A stretch of 64,000 nt of DNA from Lachnospiraceae bacterium (GTDB lineage Bacteria; Bacillota; Clostridia; Lachnospirales; Lachnospiraceae), in NCBI GenBank assembly GCA_024687125.1, contig JAILFA010000009.1, positions 1 through 64,000 of the forward strand, given 5' to 3'. The notes under the pieces are model-generated. The model saw nothing but the letters and a program-made list of their open reading frames with translations. It did not search any database and was not told where the DNA came from. The first letter of the stretch is position 1; each line of letters opens with the position of its first letter. A program made the position numbers and the translations under genes. This document shows, in pieces, positions 12,521-23,217 of the stretch.

Positions 12521-13339
12521 GTGTTCAGAGATCCGAAAAAAGCGGGGACGATAGCCTCACCGTATTTTGTCTGGGCGCTGATCTTTATCCTGGTGCCGCT
12601 TGCGATGATCCTGTGGTACGGCTTTACGGACGATACCGGTGCCTTTACCGCGGCCAATATCGCATCGATCCTGCAGCCCGAGCATGCCAAATCACTGCTC
12701 CTTGCTCTGGAACTGTCCATCCTGAGCACGGTCATCTGTTTCCTGCTCGCGTATCCGCTCGGTATGATCCTGGCGAAGAATAAGGTGAGCAGCCAGGGAA
12801 TCATTACCACGATCTTCATCCTGCCGATGTGGATGAACTTTCTGCTTCGGACTTTTTCCTGGATGACGCTTCTGGAGAATCACGGCGTGATCAACGGGAT
12901 CCTCGAGTTTCTGCATCTTCCGGGCATACACGTCATCAACACGCCCGCCGCGATCGTGATCGGTATGGTCTACAATTTCCTGCCGTTCATGATCATGCCG
13001 ATCTACAACTCACTGTCCAAGATCGATGACAATGTCATCAACGCGGCCCGGGATCTCGGGGCGAATTCTGTACAGACGTTCCTTCGCGTCACACTGCCGC
13101 TGACGGTTCCCGGGATCATATCGGGCGTCACGATGGTCTTCATCCCGGCACTGACGACCTTTGCGATCTCAACCATGCTGGGCGGCTCCAAGATCCTGCT
13201 GATCGGCAATGTCATTGAGCAGGAATTCACCCTGACCTATGACTGGCATCTGGGGAGCGGCCTCTCCATCGTGCTGATGGTCTTTATCGTGATCAATATG
13301 GTCGTTTCCGCACTTTCGGAGAAGAAAGATGAACAGTAA
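12521..13339 (+). CDS. potB: Spermidine/putrescine ABC transporter permease PotB
   Basis: A 272-residue permease with six predicted helices and an EAA loop reading NAARDLGANSVQTFLRVTL near residue 178. GTG 12521 is chosen because GTGGAGG sits six bases upstream; an in-frame ATG at 12491 lies inside potA without a better signal. It begins one base after the potA stop and overlaps potCD by 11 bases. PotB pairs with PotC to form the polyamine channel in the cytoplasmic membrane. Confidence 0.92.
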   Translation: MFRDPKKAGTIASPYFVWALIFILVPLAMILWYGFTDDTGAFTAANIASILQPEHAKSLLLALELSILSTVICFLLAYPLGMILAKNKVSSQGIITTIFILPMWMNFLLRTFSWMTLLENHGVINGILEFLHLPGIHVINTPAAIVIGMVYNFLPFMIMPIYNSLSKIDDNVINAARDLGANSVQTFLRVTLPLTVPGIISGVTMVFIPALTTFAISTMLGGSKILLIGNVIEQEFTLTYDWHLGSGLSIVLMVFIVINMVVSALSEKKDEQ

Positions 13340-15215
13340 GCGCCATCCGGTCGAAAAAATCTATATGGCGATCATCTTTCTATTCATGTACGCCCCGATC
13401 GTCACCCTGATCGTCCTGTCATTCAACGGGAGCAAGTCCCGTGCCAAATGGGGCGGATTCACCATGGAGTGGTACGCGAATCTGATCCATGATTCCGAGG
13501 TCCTCAACGCCATGGCGAATACGCTCATCATCGCGCTCATCGCGACAATCGTATCAACGCTGATCGGTACGGCTGCTTCCGTCGCACTGACCGGCATGAA
13601 GCGCAGAACGAGGTCGCTGGTCATCGGTGTGACCAACATCCCGATGATCAACGCGGATATCGTGACCGGTATCTCCCTGATGCTGCTGTTCAAGGTGCTG
13701 CATTTCGAGACCGGATTCCTGACCGTTCTGATCGCGCATATCACCTTTGACATTCCCTATGTCATGCTTTCCGTCCTGCCCAGGATGAAAACGATCAGTC
13801 CCTCGGTATATGAGGCGGCTCTGGATCTCGGCGCGGAGCCGTTTTTCGCTTTCCGCAAGACCATTCTGCCCGATCTGACGCCGGCGATCATCTCCGGAGC
13901 ACTGATGGCCTTTACGATGTCGATCGACGATTTCATTATCACCTATTTCACCAAGGGATCCGGCTTTGATACACTCTCAACAAAGATCTACAGTGAAGTA
14001 AAGCGCGGTATCCGGCCGGAGATCTACGCGCTGTCGGCGATCATTTTTATCGTCGTGCTGATCCTGCTTCTGACCTCGGACCGTATCAAGGCAAAGGCAG
14101 GAAAGAGCGTACGGCGGGAGAGGAGCGTACAGCGGGAAAAGATCCGCAGGATCGGTGTGATCGCGCTCGCTTCCGGCGCCAGTATCGCGATCATTCTCAT
14201 GGCGCTTGCCTTCGGCGGCGTGTTCTCCAAGAACAGCACGCAGGTTTTTGTTTATAATGCCGGTGAGTACATTGATCCCGAAGTGATCGAAATGTTTACC
14301 GAAGAGACCGGGATCGAAGTGGTCTATGACGAGTTTGAGTCCAATGAGATCATGTATGCCAAGGTCGCGGCCGACGGTTCCGCTTATGACGTCCTGTGCC
14401 CGTCGGATTACATGATCGCCAAGCTCATAGATAACGATATGCTGATGAAACTGGATCCGGCAAAGATCCCCAATGCTCTGCAGTATATCGGAAAGCAGTA
14501 CTATGAATCCGCGACGAGCTTTGATCCGGGCAATGAGTATGCTGTTCCGTACTGCTGGGGGACCGTCGGGATCCTTTATAACAAGACGATGGTAGACGGG
14601 CCGGTGGACAGCTGGGATATCCTGTGGGATCCGAAGTACCAGGGAGAGATCCTGATGCAGGATTCCATCCGCGATGCCTTTATGGTGGCGCTTGCCAGAC
14701 GCGGGTATTCCATCAATTCCGTTGACCCGGAGGAGATCCGGCAGGCAACGGATGACCTGATCGCACAGGCTCCGCTGGTTCAGGCATATGTGGTCGATCA
14801 GGTGCGCGACAAGATGATCGGCGATGAGGCCGCGCTCGGCGTGATCTATTCAGGTGAAGCGATCTATACGAGAAGAGAGAACGAGAATCTTGAGTATGTG
14901 ATCCCCAAGGAAGGCTCCAATGTATGGATCGACGGCTGGGTCATCTCGAGGGACGCCAGAAATGTCGACAACGCGCTTGCCTGGATCGATTTCCTCTGCA
15001 GGCCCGACATTGCACTGATGAATTTTGAGTATATCACTTATTCCACGCCAAATGTCGCCGCGCAGGAGATGATCGAGGACGAGGACATCCGCAACTCGAA
15101 CGTGGCATTTCCTGATGAAGAGACGCTTTCCAGATGCGACACCTATGTTTCGCTTGGCGAGGACGGGGATCGGTTGTATAATGAAGCATGGAAAAAGGTA
15201 AAATCAGCAGATTGA
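13329..15215 (+). CDS. potC: Fused spermidine/putrescine permease PotC and substrate-binding protein PotD
   Basis: A 628-residue fusion. Residues 1-260 are a PotC-type permease (six helices, EAA loop EAALDLGAEPFFAFRKTIL near 159). A basic linker, then an extra helix (about 277-297), leads to an external PotD-type domain (about 305-628). That domain opens with VFVYNAGEYIDPEVIEMFTE and contains SNEIMYAKV and the later YCWGTVGILYNKT segment. The fusion ties the receptor permanently to its channel and explains the absence of a separate signal-peptide-bearing potD. It overlaps potB. PotC/PotD fusions occur elsewhere in Bacillota, so the arrangement is not unique, but it is easily mis-annotated. 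Confidence 0.92.
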   Translation: MNSKRHPVEKIYMAIIFLFMYAPIVTLIVLSFNGSKSRAKWGGFTMEWYANLIHDSEVLNAMANTLIIALIATIVSTLIGTAASVALTGMKRRTRSLVIGVTNIPMINADIVTGISLMLLFKVLHFETGFLTVLIAHITFDIPYVMLSVLPRMKTISPSVYEAALDLGAEPFFAFRKTILPDLTPAIISGALMAFTMSIDDFIITYFTKGSGFDTLSTKIYSEVKRGIRPEIYALSAIIFIVVLILLLTSDRIKAKAGKSVRRERSVQREKIRRIGVIALASGASIAIILMALAFGGVFSKNSTQVFVYNAGEYIDPEVIEMFTEETGIEVVYDEFESNEIMYAKVAADGSAYDVLCPSDYMIAKLIDNDMLMKLDPAKIPNALQYIGKQYYESATSFDPGNEYAVPYCWGTVGILYNKTMVDGPVDSWDILWDPKYQGEILMQDSIRDAFMVALARRGYSINSVDPEEIRQATDDLIAQAPLVQAYVVDQVRDKMIGDEAALGVIYSGEAIYTRRENENLEYVIPKEGSNVWIDGWVISRDARNVDNALAWIDFLCRPDIALMNFEYITYSTPNVAAQEMIEDEDIRNSNVAFPDEETLSRCDTYVSLGEDGDRLYNEAWKKVKSAD

Positions 15216-15254: not shown

Positions 15255-16322
15255 ATGATGGAATACAACTATACCAGTGAAATCCTGTCTAAATATCCGT
15301 ATTTCGCTGAGGAGATGAAGAGTCATGAGATCAGCGAGATCCTCGATTCTCTCACGGGACTGATCTCCCGTCCGTTCATCATCGGATTTGTGAAGTGGAT
15401 GATCGAGCACAACCAGCCGTTTACATACGGCATGCTTGATCTTGACAATTTCAAGTTCATCAATGACACCTATGGGCACAAGGTCGGTGACGGTGTCCTG
15501 ACGGATGTATCAGCGGGACTGAGAAACTATATCGGCGAGATCGGACTTGCGGGGAGGTTCGGCGGTGACGAGCTGCTTTTTGTCAACCTGCAGGACCTCA
15601 ATTACGATGAAAAAAAGCATTTCCTGGAGGGGATGTATTTTAATTACAAGGTCCTGCGCAAAAATGTCAATCTGGGAACCTGTGAGCCGTTCATCACGGG
15701 GACGATCGGCTGCGCCACCTATCCGGAAGATGCGCAGGATTACGACGGCATGTTTGCCCTGATCGACAAGACGCTGTACCGCGGCAAGAACAAGGGCAGA
15801 AACTGCTATATCATCTATGTTGAGGAAAAACACAAAAACCTTGAGATATCCACGATCGCCAAGGAAGGGATCTATCACACCTTTCACCGGCTGGCACTGC
15901 AGTTCGATCTGCTGCCCAACATACGATCCAAGCTGCTGGCGGCTTATGATACGCTGCAGAATGAGCTCAGGATCACCAATCTCTACTATGTCGGTGAAGA
16001 TAAAAAACTGCGTTCCCTCGAGGATCCCGACATGTGTCTGGATGCGTCGGATATTGATGATCTGATGGTCGAAGACATGTATGCCGCCTATGGGCCGAAC
16101 GAGATCAAAAAATACAGCCCTGAATTCTATAAAACGGTTCTGGAGGCGAATATCGAGACAATCCTGATCATGCGTGTGGCGGTCGATATGCACGGCTTTG
16201 GCTATCTGATCTGCGGAGAGCCGGCCAATACGCGTATCTGGCAGGAGGATGAAAAGGCGATCCTGTTCTTTGCCGCAAGAATGCTTGCGGGGAGTCTTGC
16301 GAGGAACGGGCAGAAATTATGA
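15255..16322 (+). CDS. GGDEF domain protein (putative diguanylate cyclase) with C-terminal GAF-like region
   Basis: A 355-residue cytoplasmic protein. The N-terminal 180 residues form a GGDEF domain: LTGLISRPF start, the metal-binding DLDNFKFINDTYGH, and an active-site loop FGGDEL at about residues 102-107, a GGDEL variant still compatible with cyclase activity. The product-inhibition motif RxxD expected just before the loop is missing. The remaining residues (about 205-350) look like a GAF-type sensory module. GGGGGAG sits six bases before ATG 15255, favouring it over an ATG at 15240. It overlaps the phosphatase gene by four bases. No EAL domain protein is nearby. Confidence 0.82.
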   Translation: MMEYNYTSEILSKYPYFAEEMKSHEISEILDSLTGLISRPFIIGFVKWMIEHNQPFTYGMLDLDNFKFINDTYGHKVGDGVLTDVSAGLRNYIGEIGLAGRFGGDELLFVNLQDLNYDEKKHFLEGMYFNYKVLRKNVNLGTCEPFITGTIGCATYPEDAQDYDGMFALIDKTLYRGKNKGRNCYIIYVEEKHKNLEISTIAKEGIYHTFHRLALQFDLLPNIRSKLLAAYDTLQNELRITNLYYVGEDKKLRSLEDPDMCLDASDIDDLMVEDMYAAYGPNEIKKYSPEFYKTVLEANIETILIMRVAVDMHGFGYLICGEPANTRIWQEDEKAILFFAARMLAGSLARNGQKL

Positions 16323-18730
16323 TGGACCGTGTCGCTTTTAGTGTCAGCGTGAATGTTATCACCATCGCGCTGATGGCGGTGATGCTCATCGGCATCATCC
16401 TCTGGCACAGCAGAAAAAAACTGCCGCAGGACAGACTGCTGATCGTTCTTCTTCTGATATCTCTGGCAGGGGCTGCTCTGGACGCTTTTGATACTGTTAT
16501 CGAGAGCGTGGATATCGCGTGCAGGATCCCGCTCATCATGGCCGGTCATACCCTGCACAATATCACAACACAGCTCTTTCTCTACCTGATCTTCCTGTAT
16601 GTTCTCATCCATTACTGCGGGAAAAAGGATATTTCGAGGAAGCAGCTCCTGGTTTTTGCGATCCCCGCCTGCTTTTCCCTGCTGCTCCTGATCGCGAACC
16701 TCCCTTTCGGCTTTCTGTTCCGCATCGATCCCGCTACGCTGGCCTATGAACATGCGGCGTACTATCATCTTCTTGACATTGCGACGATGATCTATCTGCT
16801 CGTGTCCATGGTTCTCCTTTTCAGGGTCAACTGGAATACGGGCCTGATCCTGGGGATCCTGATCCTGCTGCGCGTGCATTTTGTACTGGTGATCAGTGAT
16901 CTCGGGATCACCAACCTGACGCTTGCGCTCGCGATCACCCTTCTTGTGATGTGTGTGCGGATCCGGGGGATCCTTGTGGAGGTTGGAAGCATCCTGGGAC
17001 TTCTTTTTCTGATTGTCATTGTTGTGATCACGAATTATCTGACATGCGCCTCCTTTACTTCCTATCTGATGACCAGAAAGGATCAGGTGGAGTTTTCCTT
17101 GAAAGGAGTGGAAAAAGCGATCCTGGATTATGACGGTCTGAACTGGGCGATTGATTATTGGAAGGAGCACCCGGACGAGATCGTCCTGAACTTTTTTGAA
17201 GATTTTGATTCCGAGAAAGTAAATGAATGGGTGGCTATGACCGAATACCTTCATGAATCAAACATCGTTGAGTATGGTGAGATCACCAATATCACATCAG
17301 AGATCCTGGAACAGCTCCCTGAGAAATGGCATATGACCTATGCAAACGCTGTCTATACCTATCTGTTCTGGGAACTGCAGCTGCAGCTGAGCGAAGAAAA
17401 AGTAAATGATCTATATCTGGTGCAGATGAACCTGACCGGAGAGGATCCGATCGTGCTCATTGACGGAAGCGCAGAAGGGAATGAATCTTCCTATAAACTG
17501 GGCGATAAGATCCCGTTTGAGACGCTCGCTGAGCTGAGAAACCGGTTTACGGAAGCAACCAGGGAGAGCGAACTGAACTGGGGCTGGCTGACCTATTCCA
17601 TGGACGACAAATTCGGAATACTCTATCAGATCGGAGATAAGTATGCGGACCAGGGACTTGTACTCATCAGTACGATCTCTATGCGGGATATCAGCCAGAG
17701 TCTCGGGTATATCAGGGGGTTCCGCATACAGGCCGTTGTCTTCCTGATCCTCATCGCCGTCCTGATGCTTCTCATACTGAGGTTTACGGTCCTTTCTCCG
17801 CTTGAAAAGGTGCAGAAGAGCGTGCTGGAATATCAGCGTGACAAGGACGCGAATAAGGTACAGCAGACACTCTCCACGGTCCCGGATCACAATGAGATCG
17901 GTGTTCTTGCAGGACAGTTCTCCTCTCTGACGCGTGAAATGGATCGTTATACGGAACAGATCGCAGTGATGGCCAGTGAACGGGAGAGGACGGAGTATGA
18001 ACTGAGTCTGGCCACATCCATACAGATGAACGCACTGTCGACAGATTTCCCCGACCGGCCGGAGTTTTCTCTGCGAGCATCCATGATACCGGCCAGAGAC
18101 GTCGGCGGAGATTTCTATGATTTCTTTGAGATCGATGAGGATCATCTGGCATTGGTGATCGCCGATGTCTCTGACAAGGGCGTTCCTGCGGCACTCTTTA
18201 TGATGTCTGCGCAGATCATGCTCAGTGAACGGACAAGAGCCGGGGGGACGCCGGCAGAGATCCTGTCTTCCGTCAATGAAAAGCTGTGTGAAAAAAGTCC
18301 TATGACGGAAATGTTTGTCACTGTCTGGCTGGGAATCCTGGAGATCAGTACCGGCAGAATGGTATGTGCGAATGCCGGTCACGAGTTTCCCGCGATACGC
18401 AGCGGCAGTGAGGGCTTCAGGCTGATCAAGGACAGGCATGGGATGGTCCTTGGCGGGATCGAAGGTTCAAAATACCATGATTATGAGATCATGCTCGCTC
18501 CGGGCGATGCGGTGTTTGTCTATACAGACGGCGTTCCGGAGGCAAATAATGAGGATGGGGAATTCTACGGCCCTGAGCGTATGGAAGCATCACTCCGCAA
18601 GGAAAATGACACCATGGATCCTGCGATGATCCTCAAACGGGTGCAGGAAGATCTCGGCGACTTTGTTGCGGGTGCGGTGCAGTTTGATGATACGACAATG
18701 CTGTGCCTGATCTACAAAGGAAAGGTGTGA
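16319..18730 (+). CDS. Membrane SpoIIE/RsbU-type serine phosphatase
   Basis: An 803-residue membrane protein. Seven or so N-terminal helices (residues 5-255) resemble a 7TM sensor module; an external region follows (about 256-460), then another helix (about 468-490), a HAMP-like and coiled segment, and a C-terminal PP2C SpoIIE domain (about 565-803). Phosphatase motifs are visible: ARDVGGDFYDFFE (about 593), IADVSDKGVPAALFM (about 615) and VYTDGVPEA (about 735). Such enzymes usually dephosphorylate anti-sigma-factor antagonists. The gene overlaps the GGDEF gene (ATGA), suggesting a joint signalling module. No antagonist or anti-sigma gene is adjacent. Confidence 0.85.
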   Translation: MMDRVAFSVSVNVITIALMAVMLIGIILWHSRKKLPQDRLLIVLLLISLAGAALDAFDTVIESVDIACRIPLIMAGHTLHNITTQLFLYLIFLYVLIHYCGKKDISRKQLLVFAIPACFSLLLLIANLPFGFLFRIDPATLAYEHAAYYHLLDIATMIYLLVSMVLLFRVNWNTGLILGILILLRVHFVLVISDLGITNLTLALAITLLVMCVRIRGILVEVGSILGLLFLIVIVVITNYLTCASFTSYLMTRKDQVEFSLKGVEKAILDYDGLNWAIDYWKEHPDEIVLNFFEDFDSEKVNEWVAMTEYLHESNIVEYGEITNITSEILEQLPEKWHMTYANAVYTYLFWELQLQLSEEKVNDLYLVQMNLTGEDPIVLIDGSAEGNESSYKLGDKIPFETLAELRNRFTEATRESELNWGWLTYSMDDKFGILYQIGDKYADQGLVLISTISMRDISQSLGYIRGFRIQAVVFLILIAVLMLLILRFTVLSPLEKVQKSVLEYQRDKDANKVQQTLSTVPDHNEIGVLAGQFSSLTREMDRYTEQIAVMASERERTEYELSLATSIQMNALSTDFPDRPEFSLRASMIPARDVGGDFYDFFEIDEDHLALVIADVSDKGVPAALFMMSAQIMLSERTRAGGTPAEILSSVNEKLCEKSPMTEMFVTVWLGILEISTGRMVCANAGHEFPAIRSGSEGFRLIKDRHGMVLGGIEGSKYHDYEIMLAPGDAVFVYTDGVPEANNEDGEFYGPERMEASLRKENDTMDPAMILKRVQEDLGDFVAGAVQFDDTTMLCLIYKGKV

Positions 18731-20704: not shown

Positions 20705-20730
20705 CCCTTATCTGTACAGAGGATGTGATT

Positions 20731-21837
20731 ATGGAAGAAAAAGATGAGCTGCTGAAGCAGCGGGAGATCATCTCTTTGATCGACAAAGAGATGGCGGAGC
20801 TATTTGAGAAACGCATGAAAGCATGCGCCGGGATCGCCGCGTATAAGAAAGAACGCGGCCTTTCCGTTGTTGACCGTTCCAGGGAGGAATTTCTGATCGA
20901 GAACAATCGATCATATATAAGCGATCCCGCGATCGAGAGTTATTATGTGGAATTTCTGAAAGGTACGATCGGACTGTCACGCAGGTATCAGGACCGCCTG
21001 CTCTCCGGGATGAAGATCGCCTACAGCGGTGTTCCCGGAGCATTTGCCTATATCGCCGCAAAGACCATGTTTGACGGAGCGTCACTTCAATGCAGACAGA
21101 GCTTTCATCAGGCATATCAAAGCGTTGAGGCGGGAGAGTGCGACTGTGCCGTGCTTCCGCTTGAGAACAGCTACGCAGGGGAAGTCGGGGCTGTGATGGA
21201 TCTTGCATTTCAGGGCGGACTGTTCATCAATCAGGTGATCGAGCTTCCCGTGAGGCACTGCCTGATCGGTACAGAGAACGCTGTAAGAGAAGAAGTAAGA
21301 AAGGTCATCAGCCATCCGCAGGCACTGCATCAGTGCTCGGATTATATCGCCCGTCACGGATTTTCCACTGAAGAATTCGGCAATACCGCACTTGCGGCAC
21401 AGTATGTCAGGGATACAGACGATCCTGAGGTTGCAGCGATCGCTTCCAGGGAAACTGCTGAACTGATGGGGCTGAAGATTCTTGATGAGCAGATCCAGGA
21501 CAGCGGTGTCAATACAACAAGATTTGCTTCTTTTTCCAGGACACTTCGCGGGCAGGGTGAGCAGACAGACGGAGAAGACGACAGTTTTATCCTGGTCTGT
21601 ACGGTCAGGAATGAAGCGGGATCTCTTGCAAAGGCTCTTAACATCATCGGCGCCTGCGGCTATAATATGAAGAGCGTGCGCAGCCGCCCTCTGAAGGAAC
21701 TGCTCTGGAAGTATTATTTCTTTATCGAAGCAGAGGGTAACATCAATACCCCTGACGGGCAGAAGATGCTGAGCGGACTTTCAGATGTCTGCTCGGATCT
21801 CAGGATCCTTGGATCTTATCGTGCGGGAAAGTTTTAG
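20731..21837 (+). CDS. pheA: Bifunctional chorismate mutase / prephenate dehydratase
   Basis: Converts chorismate to prephenate and then phenylpyruvate for phenylalanine synthesis. 368 residues: an AroQ-type chorismate mutase (about 1-85, with IDKEMAELFEKRM and the downstream KKERG), the dehydratase (about 95-275, opening KIAYSGVPGAFAYIAAKTMF, with PLENSYAGEV and the catalytic TRF of VNTTRFASF), and a C-terminal ACT domain (about 290-365) for phenylalanine feedback. In the ACT domain the usual ESRP is RSRP. ATG 20731 is seven bases after AGAGGA, better spaced than GTG 20725. No attenuator or T-box leader is visible upstream. Confidence 0.95.
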   Translation: MEEKDELLKQREIISLIDKEMAELFEKRMKACAGIAAYKKERGLSVVDRSREEFLIENNRSYISDPAIESYYVEFLKGTIGLSRRYQDRLLSGMKIAYSGVPGAFAYIAAKTMFDGASLQCRQSFHQAYQSVEAGECDCAVLPLENSYAGEVGAVMDLAFQGGLFINQVIELPVRHCLIGTENAVREEVRKVISHPQALHQCSDYIARHGFSTEEFGNTALAAQYVRDTDDPEVAAIASRETAELMGLKILDEQIQDSGVNTTRFASFSRTLRGQGEQTDGEDDSFILVCTVRNEAGSLAKALNIIGACGYNMKSVRSRPLKELLWKYYFFIEAEGNINTPDGQKMLSGLSDVCSDLRILGSYRAGKF

Positions 21838-21898: not shown

Positions 21899-21958
21899 AT
21901 GATTAAAGCAAAAGATCATTGCGCTGTCGCAGAAGATGAAAGCGGAGGTGGAACATGA
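21899..21958 (+). CDS. Possible 19-residue leader ORF upstream of the Cys-rich peptide
   Basis: ATG 21899 is preceded seven bases upstream by GGGGGA and encodes MIKAKDHCAVAEDESGGGT. Its stop overlaps the ATG of the next small gene (ATGA), so ribosomes finishing it could reinitiate there. It may be only a translational coupler rather than a functional peptide. No similarity recognised. Confidence 0.35.
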   Translation: MIKAKDHCAVAEDESGGGT

Positions 21959-22179
21959 CGGAACTGAAGGACAATACCCTGGAACAGGTAACAGGCGGTG
22001 CGGCCGCAGAGAAAAGCACGGATCCTGTGGCATACTGCCCCAAGTGCAAGAGTAAAATGAAGTATATCGATCAGGTACGCATTGAAGGAGGCAATACAAG
22101 CCGGTTTCAGTGTGAAAACACCACATGTACTGAAAGATATCTGATCAAGACAAATCTCGAGGTTCTGTTCAGTCTGTAA
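21955..22179 (+). CDS. Small Cys-rich protein with double-glycine leader-like N terminus (1)
   Basis: 74 residues. The N terminus, MTELKDNTLEQVTGG, has the form of a double-glycine leader of bacteriocin- or RiPP-type precursors, with Gly-Gly at 14-15. The rest carries two Cys pairs, YCPKCK and CENTTC, spaced like a zinc ribbon. GGAGGTGG six bases upstream gives a strong start. It is paralogous in layout to the next gene (shared DN.LE.V.GG leader pattern). No peptidase-containing ABC transporter or modification enzyme is nearby, so export and cleavage at Gly-Gly are inference. Confidence 0.7.
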   Translation: MTELKDNTLEQVTGGAAAEKSTDPVAYCPKCKSKMKYIDQVRIEGGNTSRFQCENTTCTERYLIKTNLEVLFSL

Positions 22180-22204
22180 GAGATGAACGGAAAGGAGCAG
22201 TCAA

Positions 22205-22429
22205 ATGGCGAAAGGAAATGAGGCTATGGAAAAAATTCAGGATAATAAGCTGGAAGATGTCAACGGCGGCAGTTCTGCGTCACTGATCGATCCGGCGAAG
22301 AGTTTTGTTATGTGCGATATCAGCACGACCACTGCTCACTGCAACACCTGCGGGACAGTTACCATATTTACACGCATCCAGGGGTCACGCGGCAAATGCA
22401 ATACATGCGGAAACGTCCAGCAGATTTAA
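22205..22429 (+). CDS. Small Cys-rich protein with double-glycine leader-like N terminus (2)
   Basis: 74 residues; AAAGGAG lies seven bases before ATG 22205, although ATG 22226 would give a shorter leader starting MEKIQDNKLEDVNGG. As in the previous gene, a Gly-Gly (22-23) ends the leader-like part. The remaining part has two repeated CNTCG motifs (HCNTCGTV and KCNTCGNV) plus another Cys, a compact zinc-ribbon pattern. The two genes are 25 bases apart and clearly form a pair. They could be secreted peptides, or small zinc-binding proteins with a leader-like N terminus; the function is unknown. Confidence 0.7.
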   Translation: MAKGNEAMEKIQDNKLEDVNGGSSASLIDPAKSFVMCDISTTTAHCNTCGTVTIFTRIQGSRGKCNTCGNVQQI

Positions 22430-22734: not shown

Positions 22735-23217
22735 ATGGCAGACAAAGAACAGGCAAAATCCAAAGCAAAGGGCTTTTTCGGTGAATTCCGCGAGTTCATC
22801 ATGCGCGGCAATGTCATGGATCTCGCTGTTGCTGTTATCATCGGCGGCGCTTTCCAGGCGATCATCAATTCCCTTGTCAATGACATCATCATGCCGCTGA
22901 TCTCCCTGGCAACCGGCGGGATTGATTTCACGAACTGGTTCATTTCGCTTGACGGTTCAAACTATGCGACTCTTGCAGCGGCACAGGAGGCCGGTGCATC
23001 GACGCTCAACTATGGCGTATTCATCACCGCGATCATCAATTTCCTGCTGATGGCCATCGTGATCTTCTGTCTCGTAAAGACGATGAACAGTATTGCCGCC
23101 AAGGCAAAGAAAAAGGAAGAAGAGGCACCCACGACAAAGATCTGTCCCCGGTGCCAGTCCGAGATCAGTATCAAGGCAACTCGCTGCCCGCATTGCACGA
23201 GCGAACTGGACATCTGA
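22735..23217 (+). CDS. mscL: Large-conductance mechanosensitive channel MscL with zinc-ribbon tail
   Basis: A pressure-release channel of the cytoplasmic membrane. Residues 1-130 are Msc[21 protein letters not shown] with the pore helix [20 protein letters not shown], and the second helix [20 protein letters not shown] charged linker follows, then a C-terminal zinc ribbon (ICPRC at about 135 and CPHC at about 151) that ordinary MscL proteins lack. Total length is 160 against about 130-150 usually. AAAGGAGG lies nine bases before ATG 22735. The ribbon replaces or extends the cytoplasmic helical bundle and may bind metal or a partner. Confidence 0.93.

Follow-up and report, generated by a model that had tools for sequence, protein, structure and literature searches.

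Two small Lachnospiraceae genes encode candidate zinc-ribbon peptides behind double-glycine leaders

Introduction

Among the substrates of ATP-binding cassette (ABC) exporters with a C39 peptidase domain, also known as peptidase-containing ABC transporters (PCAT) or ABC transporter maturation and secretion (AMS) proteins, are the class II bacteriocins and the ComC-type pheromones (TIGR01847, PF03047, PF10439). Leaders of this class end in a double glycine, or in GA or GS, after hydrophobic residues at positions -12, -7 and -4, and the exporter gene is often, though not necessarily, next to the precursor gene. In the present study, we describe two adjacent small genes, P1 and P2, in a stretch of 64,000 nucleotides from a Lachnospiraceae bacterium (assembly GCA_024687125.1, contig JAILFA010000009.1, positions 1 to 64,000 of the forward strand; hereafter the window). 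The products resemble C39 substrates in a short leader with leucine or isoleucine at position -12, leucine at -7, valine at -4 and a terminal double glycine (GG), in the use of one leader type before many cores, and in the presence of a C39 ABC exporter in the genome. They differ in that their cores are predicted zinc ribbons, no immunity gene was recognised, and their scores lie below the family cut-offs. We propose, with a probability of roughly three in four on the basis of sequence and structural models, that the two genes encode precursors of zinc-ribbon miniproteins that are secreted and probably remain unmodified.

Two further export systems are close to this locus. The nitrile hydratase leader peptide (NHLP) and Nif11-type systems (TIGR03793, TIGR03798, TIGR03794/03796/03797) combine ABC1, ABC2 and an HlyD-like protein, and the report describing them argues for mixing of leaders and cores with shared export (Haft et al. 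2010, PMC2887384). The genes considered here share the exporter type, the GG cleavage (predicted here) and the mix-and-match of leader and core; the likeness is limited, as the HlyD-like protein here is short and far below its cut-off. Instead of a long nitrile-hydratase or Nif11 leader they have a short one (15 residues in P1, up to 22 in P2 and, with the chosen starts, about 13-24 in most relatives), and no modifying enzyme was recognised beside P1/P2-type genes. The second system, LahT with LahA1-9 of Lachnospiraceae bacterium C6A11, belongs to the same bacterial family; according to the report on it (PMC6363468), this tolerant C39 peptidase recognises a short stretch, reads only the leader and serves many cores. 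The LahA peptides come from a lanthipeptide operon and have Nif11-type leaders, whereas no LanM-type domain was found in the present host.

The RPB9/TFIIS-type and the ribosomal (eL42, eL43) zinc ribbons belong to intracellular nucleic-acid machinery. The cores of P1 and P2 resemble them in CxxC knuckles on a predicted beta-ribbon and in a weak profile match to 1qyp, and differ in that the predicted ribbon is freestanding and preceded by an export leader. The new element is the proposed zinc-ribbon cargo; the leader, the peptidase and the exporter are of known kinds.

Results

First, each gene encodes a 74-residue precursor with a GG leader. P1 (21955-22179, + strand) has a leader of 15 residues (MTELKDNTLEQVTGG; 21955-21999, +; predicted cleavage after G15; L-12, L-7, V-4) and a core of 59 residues with four cysteines (Cys) (22000-22176, +). 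P2 (22205-22429, +) has a leader ending in KIQDNKLEDVNGG (22205-22270, +; predicted cleavage after G22; I-12, L-7, V-4) and a predicted zinc-ribbon core (22271-22426, +); an alternative ATG at 22226 would give a product of 67 residues. An earlier note on this DNA had read the segment DNxLExVxGG in both genes, and the match is exact (ELKDNTLEQVTGG in P1 and KIQDNKLEDVNGG in P2). It had also described the leaders as alike and the mature parts as different, and shuffle tests agreed: the leaders are identical at 7 of 13 positions with an alignment score reached by 0 of 1000 shuffles, whereas the score between the cores was reached by 134 of 1000, no better than chance. The residues at -12, -7 and -4 and the GG occupy the contact positions by which LahT is described to grip its leaders (PMC6363468). 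A leader matrix built from the leaders of 12 relatives, with both window leaders left out, ranked P1 and P2 first and second (21.8 and 20.8) among the 604 open reading frames (ORFs) of at least 30 residues in the window; the third-ranked ORF scored 10.5, and the maximum over 100 residue-shuffled rounds was 18.5. With the class II bacteriocin leader model TIGR01847, P1 reached 12.7 bits (cut-off 15.7) and P2 had no match, and one P2 relative (genome G039) passed with 16.3. Neither of the long-leader models, TIGR03793 and TIGR03798, appeared in the NCBIfam scan of P1 and P2 at E<=1.

Second, the leader is retained in relatives. A core-only model (A9, 18 rows, without leader) was searched in 79 genomes of the genus at E<=0.001, with more first-look candidates than were scored in eight genomes. 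The P2-type core was found at 24 places in 24 genomes, one per genome, and all 24 were already among the matches of the full-length search. A leader with hydrophobic residues at -12 and -7 precedes the core in all 24, ending in GG in 22, in AA in one (G008) and in AG in one (G045); in the latter two, a core of this kind follows an N terminus that is longer and of another type, but that ends in a similar cleavage site. Loss of leader similarity in relatives, which the earlier note had named as the result that would contradict it, was looked for with this leader-free search and did not occur. In a sample of 348 genomes drawn from the whole family, including the host, and searched with the full-length profile at E<=1e-5, at least 5 of the 347 other genomes carried a match, a lower bound given the ceiling of 16 scored candidates per genome; all five matches have a GG leader. 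One of the 30 loci examined for leaders (L059) showed a Cys-free GG peptide and no ORF with Cys pairs, and was left uncounted.

The P1 type is rare, being present in 4 of the 79 genomes, with relatives at 35-42% identity in three genomes other than the host; a fifth match (G104) is a P2-type peptide. A profile scan of genome contigs gave four loci, three from Butyrivibrio sp. and one from a Lachnospiraceae bacterium; three of these records are metagenome-derived, and the sources include goat ileum and sheep rumen. Butyrivibrio sp. VCB2006 (L100) is one carrier of a P2-type peptide. We take the host to be a Butyrivibrio-type Lachnospiraceae, probably from a ruminant gut. A phage origin was considered and rejected, the scan of viral contigs having given no relative.

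P1 and P2 might instead be ordinary cytoplasmic zinc-ribbon proteins, with an N terminus that resembles a leader by chance or for another purpose. Most known zinc ribbons are intracellular, and the window pair lacks an adjacent exporter, which fits this explanation. The retention of a leader ending in GG, AA or AG in all 24 core matches and of a leader in all five family-level matches, the finding in G008 and G045 that this core can follow another, longer N terminus and still be preceded by a similar cleavage site, and the linkage and co-occurrence with C39 described below make it highly improbable.

Third, the evidence on exporters is consistent with the proposed secretion. The earlier note had seen no exporter adjacent to the pair and had suggested a peptidase-containing transporter elsewhere in the genome, and both points hold: the only C39 matches of the host lie on contigs C28 and C71, the window being on C48, and they belong to two ABC exporters. 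The ABC1 protein of C28 passes the NHLP exporter model TIGR03796 (895.1, cut-off 853.3), and the ABC2 protein beside it falls just under its cut-off (705.9, cut-off 709.4); the C71 exporter, a more diverged ABC1/ABC2 pair, remains below (615.0). By eye, both the C28 and the C71 proteins have the C39-motif residues Cys, His and Asp. The C28 exporter is accompanied by a short HlyD-like protein (29.2 bits, cut-off 156.2) and an extracytoplasmic function (ECF) sigma factor. A search of the host with the leader alone gave seven places at E<=10, namely P1 and P2, two beside the C28 exporter and three with weak matches. Of these three, the places on C149 and C122 resemble further GG peptides and that on C106 does not. 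Two genes with GG leaders were observed just upstream of the C28 exporter (locus L008, 12198-12661, - strand), adjoining a 1141-residue protein with a signal-like N terminus.

C39 was found in 60 of the 79 genomes of the genus. It was present in all 36 genomes positive with the full-length profile and in 24 of the 43 others (Fisher p 1.4e-6), a difference that persisted among well-assembled genomes (19/19 against 16/28, p 6e-4) and with the core-only model (24/24 against 36/55, p 4e-4). In addition, 13 of the 86 places matched by the full-length profile, spread over 10 genomes, have C39 within 6 kb, where uniform placement in 3.4-Mb genomes would give 0.44 places. The earlier note had suggested a search for relatives near C39 transporters; six of the 24 core genomes have the peptide within this distance (G014, G039, G045, G060, G109 and G112).

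Fourth, the relatives occur in recurrent regulatory contexts. Five of the six exporter-linked genomes share one conserved operon that joins an NHLP exporter to partner-switch regulators. In G060 it runs from a SpoIIE/dCache protein through a helical GG peptide, a ribbon GG peptide, HATPase_c_2, two small genes without a Pfam match, a STAS protein and a 210-residue protein without a Pfam match to a short HlyD-like protein, ABC1 and ABC2. Homologues of all eleven genes occur in the same order in G039 and G109; G014 also has all eleven, with the SpoIIE-type gene after the peptides, and G112 has seven, on a contig that ends in ABC1 and where SpoIIE and the two small genes were not found. In G045 the ribbon peptide is accompanied by an HlyD-like protein, ABC1 and what looks by eye like a sigma factor gene. 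Seven of the G060 proteins (SpoIIE, HATPase, STAS, 210-residue, HlyD-like, ABC1 and ABC2) have homologues on the host contig C28, with 61% identity for ABC1 and 50% for ABC2, in a different gene order and with neither the helical nor the ribbon peptide; judged by these homologues, the C28 exporter is the counterpart of the exporter that adjoins ribbon peptides in other genomes. Outside the genus, the family-level genome G446 (L106) has a ribbon peptide among homologues of SpoIIE, HATPase, the 210-residue protein and ABC2.

In eleven other core genomes (G002, G006, G007, G010, G017, G021, G022, G029, G050, G103 and G105), the peptide lies beside a homologue of a LytTR response regulator, a hybrid histidine kinase or both, and DUF6033 is also present in 8 of these 11 segments. 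Partner-switch or two-component genes thus adjoin the peptide in 16 of the 24 core genomes; the window pair, G015, G051, G104, G108, G008, G038 and G045 belong to neither context. In the five exporter operons of G060, G039, G014, G109 and G112, the Cys-free, probably helical GG peptide stands directly before the ribbon peptide (L068, 9077-9307; L062, L067, L069 and L072), and the one copy scanned had no Pfam match. Wzz-like chain-length genes were seen by eye after ABC2 in L068, L062 and L069, a hint of a link to exopolysaccharide.

An unlikely though appreciable alternative is a bacteriocin, unmodified and perhaps made of two peptides, that would be cut after the GG, exported and used to kill competitors, with the ribbon as a stable scaffold. 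Weak matches of the GG leaders to bacteriocin leader models, the diversity of cores behind one leader and the frequency of adjacent pairs (P1 with P2 in the window and G015, helical with ribbon peptides in five genomes) would suit it. On the other hand, inspection by eye revealed no immunity-like gene next to the window pair or within the five exporter operons that were read, the P2 core is single-copy with a fixed motif, unlike diversifying toxins, and regulators are its usual neighbours.

Fifth, the cores are predicted to form beta-ribbons. The earlier note had described Cys pairs in a zinc-ribbon spacing, which is true of P2, with two CxxC pairs (C46-x2-C49-x15-C65-x2-C68, or CxxCG-x14-CxxCG at residues 46-69, with a fifth Cys, C37, outside the ribbon), and only in part of P1, the second pair of which is CxxxxC and not CxxC (C28-x2-C31-x21-C53-x4-C58). 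All four ribbon Cys of the P2 type are invariant in an 18-row alignment, and the CxxC and CxxxxC of P1 are kept in a 2-row alignment. The P2-type family shares a motif VYSGxRGxC, which has the form RIQGSRGKC in P2. AlphaFold2 models gave a beta-ribbon core for P2 (5 sequences; block pLDDT 87-89 over residues 41-74) and for P1 (2 sequences; 81-83 over residues 31-60), with low confidence for both leaders. Fold searches were weak, with no significant match: ribosomal and polymerase ribbons were among those for P2, and those for P1 were mixed with RNA polymerase I on top. The best PDB sequence match of the core profile was 1qyp (listed as RNA polymerase II, and which we take to be the RPB9-type zinc ribbon of an archaeon), at E 0.0016 over 15 positions only. 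We infer the zinc, since all fold matches are weak and this best match is so short; a zinc-ribbon fold of the P1- and P2-type cores is likely. No Pfam or NCBIfam match over the cut-off named the core family for P1, P2 and ten relatives, the only passes being TIGR01847, a leader model, and TIGR01053, a short LSD1 finger, in one relative each.

In the loci examined, GG leaders also precede other unlike cores: two more ribbon types, one with KKIQYMKVSCIKCK...KCPxC and the other with CPKCGFPMNSDGHYYG, and one type that lacks Cys and is probably helical (EFEAAWDALKMEKKGYTGNMRAE). By analogy with LahT, many cores behind one leader are expected if a shared peptidase reads the leader alone.

The Cys residues might also be converted to thioethers (lanthionine or sactionine) before export, P1 and P2 then being ribosomally synthesized and post-translationally modified peptides. 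NHLP exporters have been described together with modified precursors (PMC2887384), and other contigs of the host encode three SPASM-domain proteins. A trans-acting radical enzyme that modifies Cys is conceivable but found no support, the Cys pairs retain zinc-knuckle spacing, and neither the neighbours of the window pair nor the five exporter operons read include a modification enzyme recognisable by eye; modification is therefore improbable. A lanthipeptide identity was rejected, the LanM-type domain PF13575 being undetected in the host assembly (86% complete) and present in 10 of the 79 genus genomes and in one of the 24 core genomes (G039).

P1 and P2 are separated by 25 nt on the same strand, and are preceded by the Shine-Dalgarno-like sequences GGAGG (21944-21948, +) and AAGGAG (22192-22197, +), respectively. 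A terminator-like hairpin with a T run follows P2 (22490-22502, +; a consensus match only); the evidence for it is weak, as the region holds 3 such sites where 1.0 (sd 1.0) would be expected. The start at 21899, which the earlier note gave for the feature, belongs not to P1, which starts at 21955, but to a separate mini-ORF of 19 codons (21899-21958, +). The two ORFs overlap as ATGA, which possibly allows translational coupling. On the 5' side lies a chorismate mutase/prephenate dehydratase gene (20725-21837; Pfam CM_2 and PDT), and on the 3' side a tRNA-Gly gene preceded by a promoter match of 12/12 to the consensus. Downstream of the pair and the tRNA-Gly gene is an MscL channel gene (22735-23217, +; PF01741), the product of which has a zinc-ribbon-like C-terminal tail (CPRCQSE...CPHCTSEL). 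The window also holds an ABC permease fused to a solute-binding protein (13329-15215, +; BPD_transp_1 and SBP_bac_8) and a SpoIIE-domain phosphatase (16319-18730, +); SpoIIE proteins also occur in the exporter operons of the relatives.

The P1-P2 tandem was found in the window and in G015, where a transporter fusion gene (85% identical), P1, P2 and MscL (78%) have the same order and orientation, and homologues of UxaC and LacI lie on the far side of MscL. The SpoIIE, Mrr, 504-residue and PheA genes of the window were not found at the G015 locus. From this partial synteny, the pair is therefore taken to be an inherited locus and not a recent insertion.

Discussion

Herein, we propose a scheme in which an NHLP-type ABC exporter from another part of the genome, most likely that on C28 or else that on C71, would bind the leaders of P1 and P2 (15 and 22 residues) through its C39 domain. 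The leaders would be cut after the Gly-Gly, and cores of about 59 (P1) and 52 (P2) residues would be exported and folded by zinc held in the two Cys pairs. Judged from sequence, export after GG cleavage by an NHLP-type exporter acting in trans is very likely. The reading of the earlier note as exported GG-leader peptides is accordingly supported, every part of it that sequence can address having turned out favourable.

Two points qualify this evidence. The leader-matrix ranking is not a fully independent test, because the relatives behind the matrix were found through their similarity to P1 and P2, and leader retention in relatives is therefore the stronger test. In addition, three genes of the exporter operon have no Pfam match, and one of them could encode immunity.

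An extracellular role of the zinc-ribbon miniproteins as a signal or a surface-acting effector is tentative, at slightly less than an even chance. Signalling or action at a surface is favoured over killing on indirect grounds: the P2 core is single-copy, its motif is fixed, regulators adjoin it in 16 of 24 genomes and no immunity gene was recognised. In a broader form, Butyrivibrio-type Lachnospiraceae might secrete a family of metal-folded miniproteins in which one leader is joined to unrelated cores, comprising a helical type and no fewer than three zinc-ribbon types. NHLP-type transporters under partner-switch or two-component control would export them, and they would serve as a language or a weapon among gut bacteria, with zinc in place of chemical modification to fold the cargo; we hold this to be about as probable as its contrary.

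Peptides exported by C39 or NHLP systems are usually found through modifying enzymes or known bacteriocin cores. Zinc-ribbon cargo, with neither a modifying enzyme nor a known bacteriocin core, is easily missed. A survey of the Hungate1000 rumen genomes retained clusters whose core had class-specific motifs or matched BAGEL4, and its main text nowhere contains the word zinc (PMC13289728). The earlier note had considered a family of zinc-binding secreted peptides to be new, which holds among the matches listed in the literature: judged by titles and abstract openings, and with subscription literature mostly outside this scope, none of these matches describes zinc-ribbon cargo of GG-leader exporters. 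If P1 and P2 are secreted, this gut genus would possess metal-folded miniproteins with a fixed motif, and a general screen for any small domain behind a GG leader is suggested.
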